In this document: one piece after another, positions 165-13,367 of the stretch
How positions within the stretch are numbered: the first letter of the stretch is position 1
Layout of the letters: every line of letters begins with the position of its first letter
From: Rubrobacter sp.
Lineage (GTDB): Bacteria > Actinomycetota > Rubrobacteria > Rubrobacterales > Rubrobacteraceae
Reading direction: 5' to 3'
NCBI GenBank assembly: GCA_013815485.1
Contig: JACDGB010000012.1
Span: 1 to 13,465 of the forward strand
Length of the DNA stretch: 13,465 bases
The notes under the pieces: model-generated
Seen by the model: the letters and a program-made list of their open reading frames with translations, nothing else
What the model was told of the DNA's origin: nothing
Database searches by the model: none
Translations under genes and position numbers: made by a program

Positions 165-1289
165 CTAGCTCTGCTCCTCCGCCAACGCGGGGCGCATTCC
201 TTCTATGAGGAAGGCGACCACGTCGAGGAAATCACCACTCTTTGTGTACACCTCGCGCTGGCGTCGGCTGCCGGTGCCGCCCTCGACTATCTCCAGGATG
301 CCCGAAAGCTCGTTCTCGCAGCCGAGGTCCTGGGCGTGAGGACGCAACTCTTCGACGAGGTTGCGGGCCATGTCTTTGGCTGGGATGGTGAGTTTGTTCG
401 TGGCATCATAGAAAGCTGCGTCCATGCCGTGACGGGAGGCGCGCCACTTGTTCTCTTGCGCCAGATCCCGGTCGTATGAACCTTTCGGGCTATTGTCTTC
501 GAGGGAGCGGGCGACGATGCATTGGGTGAGGGCGGTGAGGGCGATGGTGGGTCCCAGGCTGATCTGGGTGTCAAGGATGCGTAGCTCTATGGTGCCGATC
601 CTGGGGTGGGGACGCACGTCCCACCAGCAGAATGTGTAGTCTTCCATCGCCCCGGACTCGACCATCAAATCCACGTAGTTCTCGAAGGCTTCGTAATCGG
701 GGAAGGCGGGGGGGAGTCCCGCACGGGGGAAATTCTCGAAGATCTTGACGCGGGAGGACTCGAAGCCGGTGTCGAAGCCCTGCCAGAATGGGGAGTTGGC
801 CGATAGCGCGAGAAGGAGCGGCGCGTGCTCGGAGAGACGGTTGTGGGCGTGGATGGCTTCTTCGGGGCCGGGCACGCTCACATGGACGTGCTGGCCGAAG
901 ATGACCTCGCGCTCCGCGATCCAACGCAGGGTTTCGATGACCTTCTTGTAGCGGTCCTGGTTCGTGATCTTCTGTTCCTTGTAAAGCGAGAACGGATGGG
1001 TTCCAGCGGCGGCGAGGGAAGCGTCGCAGGCAGCCGCCCAGGAGTTGACCCGGCCGCGCATCTCGCGCAGTTGTTTCTCCGCCTCGGCGACGTTCTCGCA
1101 GGCCGAGGTCTTTATCTCAAGGACGGACTGGAAAAGCTCGTAGGAGACGAACTCGCACAGATCCTCCGGGAGTCGCGCCATGATCTCTTCGATCCTGGGC
1201 ACCAACTCGCCGGTCGAGGCGTCCACGATGTGGAGCTCCTCCTCGACGCCGAGCGTGTATCCTCCATTGCCCTGGAATTCTATCGTCAT
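165..1289 (-). CDS. Carboxylate-amine ligase, glutamate-cysteine ligase family 2 (YbdK-like)
   Basis: This encodes 374 residues, the usual length for the GCS2/YbdK family (about 370). Visible family landmarks are GVEEE (14-18), ELFQSVLEIKT (51-61), GTHPF (96-100), GQHVHVSVP (132-140), ANSPFW (164-169), SSRVKIFENFPRAG (178-191) and WWDVRPHPRIGTIELRILD (222-240). These carry the acidic and histidine residues expected for ATP/metal and glutamate binding. The family makes amide bonds between a carboxylate, often the gamma-carboxyl of glutamate, and an amine. E. coli YbdK has only weak glutamate-cysteine ligase activity, so the real substrate here is unknown. The start is fixed by a near-perfect Shine-Dalgarno (AAAGGAGG) six bases or so before ATG. 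The frame stays open far upstream, but that part is an out-of-frame shadow of the transporter gene. It is transcribed leftward and is separated from the upstream transporter gene by 263 bases, so it probably has its own promoter. Confidence 0.9.
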   Translation of the reverse strand: MTIEFQGNGGYTLGVEEELHIVDASTGELVPRIEEIMARLPEDLCEFVSYELFQSVLEIKTSACENVAEAEKQLREMRGRVNSWAAACDASLAAAGTHPFSLYKEQKITNQDRYKKVIETLRWIAEREVIFGQHVHVSVPGPEEAIHAHNRLSEHAPLLLALSANSPFWQGFDTGFESSRVKIFENFPRAGLPPAFPDYEAFENYVDLMVESGAMEDYTFCWWDVRPHPRIGTIELRILDTQISLGPTIALTALTQCIVARSLEDNSPKGSYDRDLAQENKWRASRHGMDAAFYDATNKLTIPAKDMARNLVEELRPHAQDLGCENELSGILEIVEGGTGSRRQREVYTKSGDFLDVVAFLIEGMRPALAEEQS

Positions 1290-1329
1290 GGCACCTCCTT
1301 TAACCGCAGCCAGCGGGCCGGTCTGCTCC

Positions 1330-7346: not shown

Positions 7347-8174
7347 TTGGCGCGAGAAGCCGTCCCGAAGGAACAAAAGAAAGACCGGATGTTGTTCGGC
7401 GGCATGGCGCGCTGGGACGGGTTGGACTTGTTTGGGCCTGGCTACATGAGCACGGCGTACCGGAAGAAAGGCGAGATCCACATCCGGGTCGAGTCCTCGA
7501 ACCTGTGGCGCCCGAAGAACCCGATGGTGCTCCGCGCCTCCGAGTTGCCGGTACTGCGCTCCTTCTTTTTCTGGGGTCGGCTCCTCACGCAGGTCGTCGG
7601 TTCCGCGTGGACGCTCGTCTTCTTCGCCGTCACGATGGCCGTCCTCTGGATCTTCGTGAGCCTCATGCAACTCGGGAGCGGGGGCGGAGGCGTCCTGGGC
7701 GGCGCCTTCGGCTTCTTCGCGGCGTTCCCCATCCTGCCCATCCTCATACTCTTCTTCGCCGTGATGAAGTTCGGCCCCCTCGGACGCTACCACGGGGCCG
7801 AGCACAAATCCGTCGCAGCCTACGAGGAATACGGTGAGGTGACCCTCGAAAACGCGAAGAAGGCCAGCCGCATCCACCCCCGCTGCGGCACCAATATTCT
7901 GGCCTATATCATCCTCGCCGCACTGCTCGACCCGATCATCGGCTGGTGGGGCTACGCTATCCTGCAGTTCATCCTCATCTCCGAAGCGTGGTTCATCTTC
8001 GGCAAGAGCCGCCCATCCATAGCCGTCGGCAACTTCCTGCAAAAATACTTCACCACCACCGAGCCCCGCCGCGCCGAACTGGAGGTGGCAGTGGCGTCCA
8101 TGAACCAGCTTCTCGAGGCCGAGGAAGGGAAGAAAATCGGCGAGTCTCGCGTCACGATGCCAGCGCGTTTCTAG
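7347..8174 (+). CDS. DUF1385 (YqhQ-like) membrane protein
   Basis: The 275-residue product matches the DUF1385/YqhQ family through its central and C-terminal landmarks: YHGAEHKSVAAYE (148-160), SRIHPRCGTN (174-183) and LQKYFTTTEP (231-240). Hydrophobic segments lie at about 84-106, 117-140, 183-198 and 200-218, so it is an inner-membrane protein with the conserved HGAEHKS loop between helices 2 and 3. The biochemical function of the family is unknown. The N-terminal motif usual in the family (GGQAVIEGVMMR-type) is replaced by LFGGMARWDGLDLFGPGYM. The start is TTG 7347, supported by a strong AGAAGGAG five bases upstream. It follows accC after 71 bases, on the same strand. In other bacteria this gene is often near rpmE and prfA; here the downstream neighbour is a converging pseudogene. 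Confidence 0.88.
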   Translation: MAREAVPKEQKKDRMLFGGMARWDGLDLFGPGYMSTAYRKKGEIHIRVESSNLWRPKNPMVLRASELPVLRSFFFWGRLLTQVVGSAWTLVFFAVTMAVLWIFVSLMQLGSGGGGVLGGAFGFFAAFPILPILILFFAVMKFGPLGRYHGAEHKSVAAYEEYGEVTLENAKKASRIHPRCGTNILAYIILAALLDPIIGWWGYAILQFILISEAWFIFGKSRPSIAVGNFLQKYFTTTEPRRAELEVAVASMNQLLEAEEGKKIGESRVTMPARF

Positions 8175-8217
8175 CTTTTCAGTCGGTTGGCGCTTCGGTT
8201 TGTCAAACGAGCTTTTC

Positions 8218-9091
8218 TTACCAGTACGGTGGAGGCTCCGGGAGCGGCTGGCCGCACTGACACGTCCCGTTGGAGAGGTCGTGGTCTTCCATGCTGCCGC
8301 ACGACTCGCAGCGCACCCACAGCGCGTTGATGCGCTCCGGTTTCCAGACGCTCGTCACGCCTCCGGCGGTGAAGTCGGGGCCGAAGAACTGACGCATGGC
8401 CTCTGTGCGTGCCGCCGCGGAACATCTGCCCCGGGCTCTCGGCGTCCTCCCAGGCGGTAACGGTGAGCATGCGGTGGCCGGCGCGGGCGAGCAGCACGCT
8501 GATGACGCCGGGCATCCTTGCCATTTCCTGTAGGATCTGCTGTGAGTAACTGCTGACCTTCTCAGCCTCGTCCTCGGACCTGACCTGGAGGGCCGTGATG
8601 CTGAAAGCGCCCGGCTTCGTGCGATTGCCGGGCTGCAAATACACGCTATTGCCGAAGGTGACCGGCCCGACGGAGTACGGTTGGACGATGACCTGTAGCC
8701 CGAGCTGCCTCATGAGGGTTCCCTGATCGAAGTACCCCTGGACCGACCGGACCTTGCCATCCTCCACCGCGATGAAGTCCGCTCCCGGCAGAGCGATGGT
8801 GCTCCCGGTCGGCGGGTTTCATCGCAAAGAACCGGTATTGGTCCCGCGCATCATCCACTGCGCCGCCACCATCCCGTCGCCGGCGGGGGCGTGGCTGAGT
8901 ATGTCGAACGAGAGATCCGGGAACGCCGCGAAGAGGCCGCCCGCGTACTCGGCGATGGCCTGTCCGGTCAATCCATCCGGCGCGTTAGGGTCGCTGTACG
9001 TGCCGCCATCGGCGAAAGTAGCGGCGATCGCATCCGCGTCCCGCCGGTTCCAGACGTCGAAGTAACCCTGCGCAACGTCAACAGCATCCAT
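8218..9091 (-). pseudogene. Broken SnoaL-like / ABM-monooxygenase-like / zinc-ribbon fusion gene
   Basis: The reading frame from ATG 9091 (AGGA six bases upstream) gives a SnoaL/NTF2-like start, MDAVDVAQGYFDVWNRRDAD, and runs for 90 residues to TGA 8819-8821. Directly after the TGA the same frame continues as NPPTGSTIALPGADFIAVED and VRSVQGYFDQGTL, the expected second half of the SnoaL domain. A glycine codon (GGA) is the usual residue at the TGA, so one base change explains it. Next comes a ferredoxin-like segment (GAFSITALQVRSEDEAEKV, MPGVISVLLARAGHRMLTV, WEDAES) resembling antibiotic-biosynthesis-monooxygenase domains. Near 8398-8405 the frame shifts, and in the new frame AMRQFFGPDF leads to a C-terminal zinc ribbon (CESCG, then CQCG) ending PPPYW and TAA 8218-8220. 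The intact product would be about 290 residues. It is either recently inactivated or carries sequence errors. It converges on the DUF1385 gene. Confidence 0.8.
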
Positions 9092-9126
9092 CACTCTTCC
9101 TTTCCCCGATTGCGCCCTACGCGTCG

Positions 9127-9204: not shown

Positions 9205-9948
9205 TTAATTCGGCTGCTGCGTGGGGCGGATGAGGATCTCGTTGATGCTAACGCGCTCGGGCTGGGTGACGACGTAGGCGATGGCGTTGGCTATGTCCTC
9301 GGACTGGAGACGTTCGATCTGCATGAGCCCGCCCATCCCTTCGAGAGCCTCATCGTCGGTGATGTGGTCCGGCAGCTCGGTTTCCACGGCCCCAGGCTCG
9401 ACCATCGTGACCCGGACGTTGTCTTCCAAAAGCTCCTGGCGCAGCCCTTCGGAGATGGCATTGACGGCGAACTTGGTCCCTGAGTAGACACCGCCGGTCG
9501 GGCGGACCTTGCGCCCGGCGACGCTTGAGATGTTCACGATGTGCCCGCTCTTCTGGCGTTTCATCACCTCGACGGCGGCGTCGGTTGCGTACAGAAGACC
9601 CATCACGTTCACGTCGAACATCTGACGCCACTGGTCCGAGAGTCCCTTCTCGACCTTCGAGAGAAGCATCACGCCCGCGTTGTTCACGAGGATGTCAACG
9701 CTCCCGAACTCTTCCTCGGCCTTTTGGATCAGGGCGTGCGCCTGCTCCTCGTCCGTGACATCACACTGCACGGAGAGGGTCTTTCCTCCATTTCCCTCCA
9801 TGCGCTTCACGAGGTCCGTCAGGCGGCCCTCCCGCCGCGCCGCGACCACCACGGATGCGCCCTCTGCCGCCAGAGCCTCGGCTGTCGCCTCCCCGATACC
9901 ACTCGAAGCGCCCGTTACCACCGCCACCTTGCCATCCAGCTTCGCCAT
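9205..9948 (-). CDS. Short-chain dehydrogenase/reductase (classical SDR)
   Basis: The 247-residue protein is a typical classical SDR. It has the cofactor loop TGASSGIG (12-19), NNAG (89-92), a catalytic Asn in FDVNVMG (114), serines at 141-142 in NISSVAG, and the catalytic pair Y155 and K159 in YSGTK. Basic residues at the end of the second strand (AARREGRL, 36-43) favour NADP(H). The segment VEPGAVETEL and the C-terminus fit the YdfG-like clade of 3-hydroxy-acid or serine dehydrogenases, but the substrate cannot be told. The start is ATG 9948 with AGGAAGG seven bases upstream. It begins 33 bases after the stop of the upstream membrane-protein gene and is probably the last gene of that leftward set, although SDR genes are so common that the functional link is uncertain. 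Confidence 0.92.
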   Translation of the reverse strand: MAKLDGKVAVVTGASSGIGEATAEALAAEGASVVVAARREGRLTDLVKRMEGNGGKTLSVQCDVTDEEQAHALIQKAEEEFGSVDILVNNAGVMLLSKVEKGLSDQWRQMFDVNVMGLLYATDAAVEVMKRQKSGHIVNISSVAGRKVRPTGGVYSGTKFAVNAISEGLRQELLEDNVRVTMVEPGAVETELPDHITDDEALEGMGGLMQIERLQSEDIANAIAYVVTQPERVSINEILIRPTQQPN

Positions 9949-9981
9949 GTTGGAACCTTCCTGTTAGCTCACGGCGCGTAC

Positions 9982-10941
9982 TTACCCCGATGTGCTGGGA
10001 GAATATTCTCCTCGCGGCGGTTGTTCGACCGTTAATTGCAGGTAGGCGAGGGTCCAGTAGGCGTGGTTGAAGACCCCGAAGATGGCGGCGAACAGGATCA
10101 GGGGCAACGAGACGATCAGGCCGACCACAACCGCCACCCCGACGACCAGCGGATACGGCGCCGCCGAGGACAGCGCGAAGAACCCGGCGGTCTGCGCGAT
10201 GCCGATGACGAAGGTCACGACGAACAATACGGCCGTGACCGCGAGGGCGATGGCAAGCTGTATCAGCCAAACCACAATGGTGCGTCCCAGATTGCGCCGG
10301 AACAGCCGGTAGCCGCCCCCTATCGCGGAGAAGATGCCCCGGCCTCCGATCACTAACTCCCGCAAAGCGAGTTGCCCCACCAGATACAACGCCACGGTGA
10401 TGACGAGCAGCAACACGAGCGCCACCAGCCCAACGATGGAGATGAACAGGACGCGCAGCCCGACCGAATCCGTGGCGGAGACTACCCCGAAGATGCCCAG
10501 CGCCGCCGGACCTGCGATCACGATCAAAGGCACGAGCCCGATCAGAGAGAACAACAAGCTGTAGAGAAACACGCGCCAGAGGTTCCTTACTCCGGCCCGC
10601 CAGGTCGAGGCGAAGCTGCGTCTCTCGCCCCGGCTCAGCGCCGCGACGCTGTCCACGAGGCCCCCGGCGGAGACTAGCGTCAGCCCGACGAAGAAGACCA
10701 GGAACAGGACGAAGACCACAGCGCCCAGGGCCACGGCCAGGGCGATATTTGCTTGCGCCCATCCGCCTATGCCGACCAGCCAGGCTGGGACGCCGCTCGC
10801 AGAGGTGGAACTCTCCGTGCTCGGGGGGACGCTGACGTTGAAATAGCCTGCTGCTCCGCCGATGAAGAAGCCGAAGAACCACAGGTAGCGGTTGCGCCAC
10901 GCCATCCTGAAAGCGTCCGCGATCAGATCCCCGTAGTTCAT
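9982..10941 (-). CDS. Multi-pass membrane protein, second of a tandem paralogous pair
   Basis: The 319-residue product is an integral membrane protein with about six hydrophobic segments: roughly 18-33, 65-91, 122-155, 163-192, 221-250 and 265-292. It shares with its upstream neighbour the N-terminal MNYGDLIxDxFRxxWRNRYLWFFGFF. Also shared are a central (R/Q)GxRRSFxxTWRAG, a YRxFRRNxGRxxxVW before the fifth segment and a C-terminal FNHxYWTLAYL. The loop after the first segment is Ser/Thr-rich (STESSTSASG, 41-50) rather than polyglycine. Layout resembles membrane-domain proteins related to the GPDPase membrane region or archaeal/bacterial DUFs of this size; I cannot name a function. The start is ATG 10941, with GAGAGG seven bases upstream. 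It lies 48 bases after the first paralogue and 33 bases before the SDR gene. Confidence 0.78.
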   Translation of the reverse strand: MNYGDLIADAFRMAWRNRYLWFFGFFIGGAAGYFNVSVPPSTESSTSASGVPAWLVGIGGWAQANIALAVALGAVVFVLFLVFFVGLTLVSAGGLVDSVAALSRGERRSFASTWRAGVRNLWRVFLYSLLFSLIGLVPLIVIAGPAALGIFGVVSATDSVGLRVLFISIVGLVALVLLLVITVALYLVGQLALRELVIGGRGIFSAIGGGYRLFRRNLGRTIVVWLIQLAIALAVTAVLFVVTFVIGIAQTAGFFALSSAAPYPLVVGVAVVVGLIVSLPLILFAAIFGVFNHAYWTLAYLQLTVEQPPRGEYSPSTSG

Positions 10942-10989
10942 CGCCGAGCCTCTCCGTTCGCCGTCAGGTCCGTTGGGACCCTTCTACGT

Positions 10990-11949
10990 TTATACGACGC
11001 GCGGGGTTGCTCCTGTTGTACCGGGCGTCATTCGCAGGTAGGCGAGTGTCCAGTACGAATGGTTGAAAGTCCCGAGGATGGCCGAGGCCACGATGAGAAG
11101 GGGGAGCAATATTATTCCGGCGATTATGCCAGCTATGATCGCCGCCGTGGCGGCCTCCGCAACCGCAAGGAGTATCGTCGGGAGGAAGAGTATGAATCCC
11201 ACTATCAGCGCGGCGATGATGAACGCGATGGTGGCGCCGAGCATGATCCCAAGCTGTATCACCCACACCAGCAGGCTCCGGCCCATGTTGCGCCGGAACA
11301 TCCGGTAGCCGCTCCCGACGGAGCTTATGACGCCCTCGCCATCAACTACCATCGTCCGCCGGGCGAACTGCCGGATAATCGCAACCGGGATGAAGATCAC
11401 GAACAGAGCCACGATAACGACCGGTATGGCTATGACGACGGCCACCACCTTAAACGCCGTCGAGTCCGTGAAGAAGGCTCCGCCGACCAGCAGTCCAATG
11501 GGTATCGCAACGGCGAGCAGAAGCCCGAGCACGATCCCGACGAACAGCAGGATCTGACCGAGCACGCGCCAGAATAGATGCGCCCCGGCCCGCCAGGTAG
11601 TCGAGAAACTGCGCCGTTGTCCCCGCTCCACCGCCGCTACGCTGTCGGTGAGACCGCCCTGAGAGACCACGTATATCGCGAAGAGGACGAGGAAGATCAC
11701 GAACGACACCGCGATCAGACCGATGATCAAACCGACGTTCTGGAACGTACTCTGAACGGCAGTCGCCGAGACGGAGGCGATCTCCGCGGAACTCTGCTCC
11801 TGGAAGTCTCCGCCGTTTCCACCACCACCACTGCCGCCTCCACCGCCGCCACCCACGGAACCCAGGTACACGAAGAACCCGAAGAACCACAGATAGCGGT
11901 TGCGCCAGGTGATGCGGAATGAGTCCCTTATGAGGTCTCCGTAGTTCAT
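10990..11949 (-). CDS. Multi-pass membrane protein with polyglycine loop, first of a tandem pair
   Basis: This protein is also exactly 319 residues, with hydrophobic segments at about 19-33, 72-96, 126-160, 166-192, 225-262 and 265-295. It shares the terminal and central signature motifs with the adjacent paralogue. The two genes match at 34 of the first 36 positions of the block starting at 11872 versus 10864, which encodes the WRNRYLWFFGFF region, so they arose by duplication. The loop after the first segment is a glycine run (SVGGGGGGGSGGGGNGG, 31-47) followed by an acidic DFQEQSSAE stretch. Function is unknown; a permease-like or scaffold role is possible. The ATG 11949 lies only five bases after the stop of the ATP-grasp gene, and the AGGTAGGG that serves as ribosome-binding site overlaps that stop. 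Translation of the two is therefore probably coupled, which ties this membrane protein to the ATP-grasp enzyme. Confidence 0.8.
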   Translation of the reverse strand: MNYGDLIRDSFRITWRNRYLWFFGFFVYLGSVGGGGGGGSGGGGNGGDFQEQSSAEIASVSATAVQSTFQNVGLIIGLIAVSFVIFLVLFAIYVVSQGGLTDSVAAVERGQRRSFSTTWRAGAHLFWRVLGQILLFVGIVLGLLLAVAIPIGLLVGGAFFTDSTAFKVVAVVIAIPVVIVALFVIFIPVAIIRQFARRTMVVDGEGVISSVGSGYRMFRRNMGRSLLVWVIQLGIMLGATIAFIIAALIVGFILFLPTILLAVAEAATAAIIAGIIAGIILLPLLIVASAILGTFNHSYWTLAYLRMTPGTTGATPRVV

Positions 11950-11954
11950 AATCC

Positions 11955-13352
11955 CTACCTTTCGAGTACCCAGGTGTCCTTCATTTTGCCGCCGCTTGAG
12001 ATGTTGACGACGTGCTTGCCCGGCGCGGCCACGCGGGTCAGGGAACCGGGAACCACCTCGACCACGCCGGGGTCCTCCGGGTCCGGGGCGAGCACGAGTA
12101 CCCGGTAGTCGGCGTATGAGTCACGCAGAAATAACCCTTCCTCGTCCGTCTCGCAGAGTACGTGGGTCGAGAAGTCTATGGTCTCCTGCGCCACGTATTC
12201 GACAGGGTCCTTCTCGACCTTCTTGCGGAACCTTTCGATGGATTCCTTCGTTTCTTCCGGGCCGATCATGACTTCCTTCCCACCGTAGCCGCCGCGGCTC
12301 TTGACGACCAGCTCCCCGAAGTGGTCCATGACGTATCGGCGGTCCTCCTCGACTGCGAGCGACCACGTCCTGGCGTTTTCGATGAGCGGCTCCTCCCCAA
12401 GATATGTCCGCACCATCTCGGGGACGAAGACACCCACGCCCTTGTCATCCACTATCTCGGAGTTCGGGGCGAAGAGGATATGGACCTTTCCCTCGACGTG
12501 GCACTCCAGAAGACCTGGGATATCCGCGTAGAGCTTGTCCTCGTCCACCCGCTCGTAGATCACGTCTATGCGGCGGCCCGATGGCTCATGCGCCAAGTAT
12601 CCGTCTCCGTCTATTTTCAGATGCTTTGTCTCGGCGAGGATGGCGTCCATTTCCCGGGCGTAGATGTGATGATCGAGGTAAAACTGGTCATCGGGACCGC
12701 TGCTTATGACGGCGAGCGTTGCCTCGGGACCTTTCGGAGAGGCGGCCCGCAGCGCGTCGCCGAGGCGGGAGAGCCATCCGTCCAGTGAGAGGACCGGAAG
12801 CCCGGCGTGAGCTTTCGGGAAGAAGACTTCGTGGCTCATCCTGCGGCGGCGGGTCATGGCGGCGAGTCCGACGGGCATTTTTGCGTTCTCTTCGATGACC
12901 TGATACTTCCAGCCTCCGTCCTCCGTCGCCACTACATCGAAGGCGATCTGACGCGCCGGAACGGGGCCGAAGCGGTCCTTCCACGAGGTGTCGTAGAGTA
13001 TGCTGCTCTCCACGACTTCTCGAGGCACGACTTCTTCCTTGCCGGTCTCCAGCCTTCGGAGGAATTCGTTGATGGCTACCATGCGCTGTGACAGCCCCAT
13101 TGCGAGGCGTTCCCAGTCAGCGGCGGGGACTATGCGAGGGAACCAGTCCGTCGGGTGGGTCTTGTCTCCCTCCAGAATGCCGAAGGCGTGCTGTTCTTCG
13201 AGGAGGAGGCGGTGGGCGTTCCGGATCCTCTCGTTCCATCGTTTTGGGCCGGTGGTCGCCAACTCCTCGAGGACAGTTTCGTAGACGGGGCGCAGGGTAC
13301 CATCGGTGAGAAATACCTCGTTGGTGCCCGGAAGTGCGCGGTCGAACCTCAC
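11955..13352 (-). CDS. Circularly permuted ATP-grasp type 2 protein (DUF404/DUF407 family)
   Basis: The 465-residue product matches the circularly permuted ATP-grasp family along its whole length. It shows RIVPAADWERLAMGLSQR (73-90), the ENAKMPVG segment (155-162) where others have ENAR.PSG, and IYERVDED (265-272). VDDKGVGVFVPEM (301-313) leads into RTYLGEEPLI. The nucleotide-binding core LVVKSRGGYGGKEVMIGP is at 348-365, with YVAQE (386-390), DYRVLVL (415-421), PGSLTRVA (435-442) and the closing SSGGKMKDTWVL (452-463). ATP-grasp enzymes activate a carboxylate with ATP and join it to an amine or thiol, so it is a presumed peptide or amide ligase of unknown substrate. The start is GTG 13352 with no Shine-Dalgarno and a TATAAT just upstream. 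In other bacteria relatives lie with alpha-E and transglutaminase-like genes; here the downstream partners are two membrane proteins and an SDR. Confidence 0.9.
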   Translation of the reverse strand: MRFDRALPGTNEVFLTDGTLRPVYETVLEELATTGPKRWNERIRNAHRLLLEEQHAFGILEGDKTHPTDWFPRIVPAADWERLAMGLSQRMVAINEFLRRLETGKEEVVPREVVESSILYDTSWKDRFGPVPARQIAFDVVATEDGGWKYQVIEENAKMPVGLAAMTRRRRMSHEVFFPKAHAGLPVLSLDGWLSRLGDALRAASPKGPEATLAVISSGPDDQFYLDHHIYAREMDAILAETKHLKIDGDGYLAHEPSGRRIDVIYERVDEDKLYADIPGLLECHVEGKVHILFAPNSEIVDDKGVGVFVPEMVRTYLGEEPLIENARTWSLAVEEDRRYVMDHFGELVVKSRGGYGGKEVMIGPEETKESIERFRKKVEKDPVEYVAQETIDFSTHVLCETDEEGLFLRDSYADYRVLVLAPDPEDPGVVEVVPGSLTRVAAPGKHVVNISSGGKMKDTWVLER

Positions 13353-13361
13353 AAGACGAAG

Positions 13362-13367
13362 ATTATA
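13362..13367 (-). promoter_or_regulatory. -10 element of the ATP-grasp operon, possible leaderless start
   Basis: A perfect leftward TATAAT ends nine bases before the GTG at 13352. Transcription would begin at or within a few bases of that codon, leaving no room for a ribosome-binding site, and none is seen. The -35 region is weak. A rightward TATACT (13364-13369) overlaps it, so divergent transcription from the same few bases is possible. Confidence 0.5.

Follow-up and report, generated by a model that had tools for sequence, protein, structure and literature searches.

In the Rubrobacteraceae, an ATP-grasp ligase of the circularly permuted (CP) family CP_ATPgrasp_2 is found without the gene partners of its canonical context and is linked instead to a membrane protein of the DUF7544 family, which points to a different role. 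The arrangement was analysed in a 13,465-nt stretch of DNA from Rubrobacter sp. (GenBank assembly GCA_013815485.1, contig JACDGB010000012.1), referred to as the window, where the ligase gene is followed by two DUF7544 genes (M1 and M2) and a gene for a short-chain dehydrogenase/reductase (SDR) (Table 1). The pairing of ligase and membrane gene is special, old and family-wide with losses, and is clearly unlike the canonical context. We regard as evenly balanced the proposition that this is a core amide ligase for small molecules, working without alpha-E and transglutaminase proteins, and that the membrane protein is accessory to it and may resemble a transporter.

The canonical context of this widespread ligase family is the operon of CP_ATPgrasp_2, alpha-E and transglutaminase genes, with Anbu in addition, that was reportedly described by Iyer in 2009. 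This operon is treated in the accessible parts of PMC5666114 and PMC6376114; according to the latter, the roles proposed for the Anbu operon are unconfirmed, and the release of phosphate from ATP could be documented. Our main survey covered 39 Rubrobacteraceae genomes, with 14 control genomes and a phylum sample of 296 genomes.

The ligase and membrane gene pair

Reading of the open reading frames (ORFs) in the window gave intergenic gaps of 5 bases between the ligase gene and M1, 48 between M1 and M2, and 33 between M2 and the SDR gene. The ligase matched PF14403 with 264.1 bits (cut-off 32) over profile positions 1–374 of 374, and PF04174 with 181 bits. The products of M1 and M2, which are 41% identical, both exceeded the cut-off of 27 bits for DUF7544 (PF24400), with 57.9 and 29.1 bits, respectively. 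The four-gene minus-strand order, the gaps and the gene identities given in a preliminary description of this DNA are thus confirmed. Ratios of non-synonymous to synonymous substitution (dN/dS) against a relative of the same genus (L067) were 0.073 for the ligase, 0.178 for M1, 0.250 for M2 and 0.085 for the SDR, indicating that all four genes are under purifying selection. Since, in addition, the order recurs across the Rubrobacteraceae, the arrangement goes beyond chance. The window is one entire contig of a genome that is 75% complete and divided over 511 contigs, and it ends 113 bases upstream of the ligase gene, so that the genes upstream were judged in relatives only.

Table 1. Features of the ligase operon in the window
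Feature	Position	Strand	Description
ATP-grasp ligase	11955-13352	(-)	CP_ATPgrasp_2, 465 aa, GTG start
M1	10990-11949	(-)	DUF7544 membrane protein, 319 aa
M2	9982-10941	(-)	second DUF7544 membrane protein, 319 aa
SDR oxidoreductase	9205-9948	(-)	adh_short, 247 aa
TATAAT element	13362-13367	(-)	9 nt from its end to the ligase GTG

The window ligase belongs to a branch, clade A, that was met only in the Rubrobacteraceae among the sequences examined. Orthologues were found in 35 of the 39 family genomes (fragments in G007 and G017 included), and those of relatives are 69–89% identical to the window ligase. No clade A ligase was found in G008, G019, G034 and G060, genomes that are 60–79% complete; G060 has a ligase gene of another branch, clade B, only. 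In the 24 relatives first fetched (L067–L090), the ligase gene is flanked on one side by divergent replication genes, encoding a DnaB_2/DnaD-type protein (by Pfam) and a DnaC-like one (by eye), and on the other by a DUF1385-AccC-AccB-MutL block; the arrangement is interrupted at contig ends and by missing genes.

The membrane-family profile matched 28 of the 39 genomes, always directly downstream of the ligase except in G034, where a membrane-gene remnant and the SDR gene persist and no ligase was found on that contig. The same search found the family at no other locus in these genomes, and the claim that the pairing is special, made in the preliminary description, is upheld rather than refuted by the related genomes. 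Among the 35 genomes with the ligase, the membrane gene is full-length in 22, cut by a contig end in one (G033), present as fragments or remnants in four (G024, G032, G016 and G026) and without any membrane-family match in eight (G003, G015, G023, G011, G030, G028, G061 and G017). The 18 intact pairs (17 relatives and the window) were read base by base, with six start codons set by hand: 10 show a 4-base overlap (ATGA, GTGA or TTGA), 16 lie no more than 31 nt apart, and the remaining two are separated by 163 and 171 nt. The ligase and membrane genes are probably co-transcribed. Two contigs of G027 (L145 and L070) carry a clade A ligase, in one case only its end, together with a membrane gene, and may represent either a second cassette or a mixture of strains.

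A perfect TATAAT precedes the ligase start codon in 32 of the 33 clade A loci, by 9 nt in 30 of them and by 8 nt in the other two; the exception, L068, carries TATAGAAT in its place. Within 20 nt upstream of the start, TATAAT was present for 17 of 37 ligase-cluster genes, compared with none of 257 other supported genes at the same loci, a rough control that uses ORF-caller starts, where wrong starts would lower both counts. A full −35/−10 promoter was rejected, as a consensus scan found none and TATAAT alone is conserved. Since a −10 box so close to the start leaves no space for a ribosome-binding site, a leaderless mRNA is likely, with TATAAT probably serving as its −10 box and translation of the ligase probably being leaderless. 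Leaderless genes are common in actinobacteria, and the element therefore marks a conserved promoter and not a novelty.

Absence of the usual partners and the nature of the proteins

Genome profile searches for alpha-E (PF04168) and Bact_transglu_N (PF08379) each gave matches in none of the 39 family genomes, while each matched two of the 14 control genomes. Likewise, neither alpha-E nor transglutaminase was found in the DNA fetched around 37 Rubrobacteraceae ligase loci, comprising 25 of clade A (window included), six of clade B and six of a third branch, clade C. The preliminary description had noted that the usual partners are absent downstream; this holds across the family, and the upstream side, where such partners would have made the pairing coincidental, showed none in the relatives. 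At CP-ATP-grasp loci of other Actinomycetota, alpha-E and transglutaminase matches were present in the fetched stretch in 23 of 23 cases, a selected and non-random set of three loci encountered at an early stage and a further 20, belonging to 19 genomes, that were chosen from the matches, mostly high-scoring; at L169, the alpha-E match is weak (E 6e-7) and is located in the ligase's own frame. Outside the family, the phylum sample contained the membrane family in at least 40 genomes, with no more than 7 candidates scored per genome, and CP_ATPgrasp_2 in 56 (8 below cut-off), and no genome had both among the matches listed.

Structure comparison assigned the window ligase a glutathione-synthetase-like circularly permuted ATP-grasp fold, the nearest solved structure being 3n6x, itself of the CP_ATPgrasp_2 family. 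In the alignment, 50 conserved columns common to clades A, B and C and to the alpha-E-linked group show that the catalytic core is retained, and the window ligase looks like an active CP_ATPgrasp_2 amide ligase. It thus resembles the enzyme of the Anbu-type operon in family, fold and core, but positions constant in the alpha-E-linked ligases are altered, and a DUF7544 gene stands where alpha-E and transglutaminase would be expected. Ligases of the clade A/B type carry K158, D227 and E267. Glutathione synthetase, glutathionylspermidine synthetase and the Cp1B ligase are only 9–16% identical to the window ligase and have different neighbours.

For the membrane protein M1, a model was predicted with a mean confidence score (pLDDT) of 84.3, in which residues 35–63, including a Gly-rich stretch, are unreliable; matches to antibody-fragment structures fall on this Gly-rich loop and were set aside. 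The best structural matches of the model, PNS1/CTL1 and CysZ, both named transporters or permeases, extend across nearly the whole chain and are followed by a drop in Z from 11.3 to 6.9, although helical bundles can reach such values without clear kinship. Foldseek with the M1 model gave nothing at E ≤ 0.001, and no solved CysZ or CTL/PNS1 chain matched the membrane-family profile at E ≤ 10. Judged from the model, transport would be the most likely role of the DUF7544 protein. Around 20 loci read outside the family, no context shared with this operon was seen for DUF7544-like genes; in eight of them (L129–L136), DUF7544 relatives lie between DUF362/ferredoxin-like and rsmI-like genes (named by eye).

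The idea that the two membrane paralogues work as a heteromer, put forward in the preliminary description, was not borne out. A complete second copy is present in the window and in G002, and its first 30 residues are found at a contig edge in G001, that is, in all three genomes of the window's genus, while other genera carry one copy (the second contig of G027 aside). M2 has diverged faster than M1 (68.9% versus 77.5% identity to L067; dN/dS 0.25 versus 0.18). In the tree, M2 groups with a divergent type from L072 and L137 (support 97/98), with a single M1+M2 clade unrejected by the approximately unbiased test (p-AU 0.056). The heteromer was rejected as the working unit because two copies are confined to one genus and because 12 of the 35 genomes keep the ligase without an intact membrane gene.

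Proposed function and alternative explanations

In the reading we favour, the ligase would be a soluble cytoplasmic enzyme, similar to glutathione synthetase, acting on changed substrates in the Rubrobacteraceae. ATP would phosphorylate a carboxylate to give an acyl phosphate, an amine would attack this intermediate, and the enzyme would release ADP, Pi and a small product of amide or dipeptide-like nature into the cytoplasm. The co-translated DUF7544 protein would act as a permease-like accessory that imports the substrate or moves the product, useful yet dispensable. The SDR may oxidise or reduce the substrate or the product at a hydroxy or keto group; its nearest solved relative is 2jah, which bears the name clavulanic acid dehydrogenase (E 1.9e-62).

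The losses of the membrane gene make the handling of a ligase product at the membrane, as proposed in the preliminary description, no more than a possibility, the ligase being retained in 12 of 35 genomes where its neighbour has decayed (four) or was not found (eight). The decay is concentrated in genus g3, where it is in progress. DUF7544 genes in pieces or with stops were seen at L073, L077, L138 and L143, with the ligase whole at the first three and none found at L143. The neighbours may instead be conserved without a joint function, as a stable block in which the membrane and SDR genes are carried along with roles of their own, and of the alternatives this unlikely one survives best. The block between the DnaD/DnaC-like genes and DUF1385-AccC-AccB-MutL is indeed conserved in the family, the membrane and SDR genes have been lost independently of the ligase, and the two protein families were not seen together in the sampled genomes outside the Rubrobacteraceae among the matches listed. 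Many relatives retain the SDR (70–92% identical) on the downstream side of the ligase, also where the membrane gene has been lost. However, the frequency of 4-base overlaps and the lack of any membrane-family match elsewhere in the 39 genomes exceed what conservation of gene order needs, and the locus sheds genes freely, yet has kept the ligase-membrane pair intact in 22 of 35 genomes.

Decidedly less probable is amidation of a lipid headgroup or an envelope component by the ligase, with the DUF7544 protein anchoring the enzyme or flipping the product. The membrane linkage in clade A would fit this, as would a small hydrophobic gene just upstream of the ligase at all six clade B loci (see below). 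The accessible part of PMC12239564 provides a parallel, in that the rlo operon of Pseudomonas aeruginosa encodes a cytosolic ATP-grasp protein with an inner-membrane protein, and mutating rlo affects cell morphology as well as biofilm and antibiotic-resistance defects. According to the same part, rloABC differs in that RloC is 24% identical to RimK and the transglutaminase domain of RloB is inactive, and DUF7544 or an SDR goes unmentioned there. Against a lipid or envelope target, the operon contains no lipid enzyme and its membrane gene is dispensable, and the nearest structures use soluble thiol peptides or amino acids.

Less probable again is the production of a glutamyl-type dipeptide as a stress or compatible solute, similar to the system proposed below for clade C. 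Clade C ligases adjoin GCS2, TIGR03104 amidotransferase and DUF1028 genes in some genomes, and the window also holds a GCS2 gene; clade A, however, has none of them as direct neighbours and can be told from clade C by fixed alignment positions, and the solutes reported for Rubrobacter in the accessible part of PMC4148983 are trehalose and mannosylglycerate. Finally, an alpha-E/transglutaminase peptide-tagging system whose partners have diverged beyond detection would share the ligase fold and core, but can hardly be correct given the searches that matched controls and not the family, and the changed positions of the ligase. An anti-phage role was also rejected, no PADLOC match being obtained for the four operon proteins.

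The Rubrobacteraceae offer a lineage that has the ligase with a membrane partner and without the rest of the module, in which the ligase can be assayed alone. Rubrobacter is studied for its radiation and stress tolerance, and a core pathway to an uncharacterised metabolite would for this reason be of interest. In the open-licence library searched, no title or abstract start among those listed dealt with a CP-ATP-grasp ligase together with DUF7544 or in Rubrobacter, no paper joined Rubrobacter with ATP-grasp, and none used the word DUF7544; Iyer 2009 might list the clade A or clade C neighbourhood.

Clades B and C and other genes of the window

Clade C ligases are 38–42% identical to the window ligase. 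At L102 (6999-12296), the order is GCS2, clade C CP-ATP-grasp, TIGR03104 amidotransferase (969.8 bits; cut-off 570.1) and DUF1028, and this arrangement was also seen, in full or in part, at L097, L101, L107 and L116. TIGR03104 is over cut-off in four of the 39 family genomes (G004, G018, G024 and G062) and adjoins the clade C ligase in all four, the ligase of G024 being split over two frames. Of the phylum sample, 30 genomes have it, and by coordinates it adjoins a CP_ATPgrasp_2 match in only four of these: G004, G018, G024 and, outside the family, G118. The arrangement is therefore unusual. In G118, an actinobacterium, the match (a 958-aa frame) is directly beside TIGR03104 (G118:C10:116732-119795). 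The clade C unit is not fixed, since G010 has GCS2 without the amidotransferase and other loci, among them L098, L099 and L109–L113, some of which are short stretches, have neither. At L100 (9378-9614), a 78-aa frame with an AsnB-like start and a DUF1028 end (by eye) adjoins the clade C ligase and looks like a deletion remnant.

In the known pathway to N-acetylglutaminylglutamine amide (NAGGN), N-acetylglutaminylglutamine is the product of Ngg and is then amidated by AsnO, according to the accessible part of PMC8070244. Clade C resembles this asnO/ngg system in adjoining a TIGR03104 amidotransferase, and differs in that the NAGGN synthetase TIGR03103 is over cut-off in none of the 39 family genomes. 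A simple interpretation is that the dipeptide to be amidated would be made by clade C ligases, with or without GCS2. The clade C neighbours suggest glutamate, glutamine and their dipeptides as substrates, a first guess for the ligase family; clade A differs in residues and neighbours. The window contains no TIGR03104 gene, and its own genome, 75% complete, gave no match at E ≤ 1e-30.

At the six clade B loci (L091–L096), a small hydrophobic protein of 133–170 aa, probably a membrane protein, is encoded 34–142 nt upstream of the ligase; the one tested had no Pfam match. An unrelated SDR gene precedes it in all six cases. An SDR gene lies near the ligase in clade A as well as in clade B, but a joint duplication of the two genes was rejected, as the SDRs are only ∼27% identical. 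In the window's own genome, the clade B ligase (L106, contig C287) matches over its first 147 residues only and is therefore broken or misassembled.

Tentatively, and as a rather unlikely proposition when taken whole, the Rubrobacteraceae may have converted a ligase for peptide tagging into ligases that act alone on small molecules. Clade A would then form a core operon, nearly universal in the family, with DUF7544 as a transporter-like partner, clade B would be paired with a different membrane protein, and clade C would take the place of the NAGGN synthetase beside its amidotransferase. The alpha-E/transglutaminase module would in that case be separable from the ligase, and the family would make undescribed stress dipeptides or amides.

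Beyond MutL, the window encodes a second peptide-type ligase at ∼165-1290 (-), a YbdK-like GCS2 protein over the cut-off of NF010043, with its start estimated, and this GCS2 belongs to a cluster of 10 members, the window's included. A SnoaL-like gene at 8171-9094 (-) is split into two frames of 91 and 198 aa, corresponding to one 319-aa frame in L067 (5508-6467), and the split reflects either a frameshift or an assembly error.

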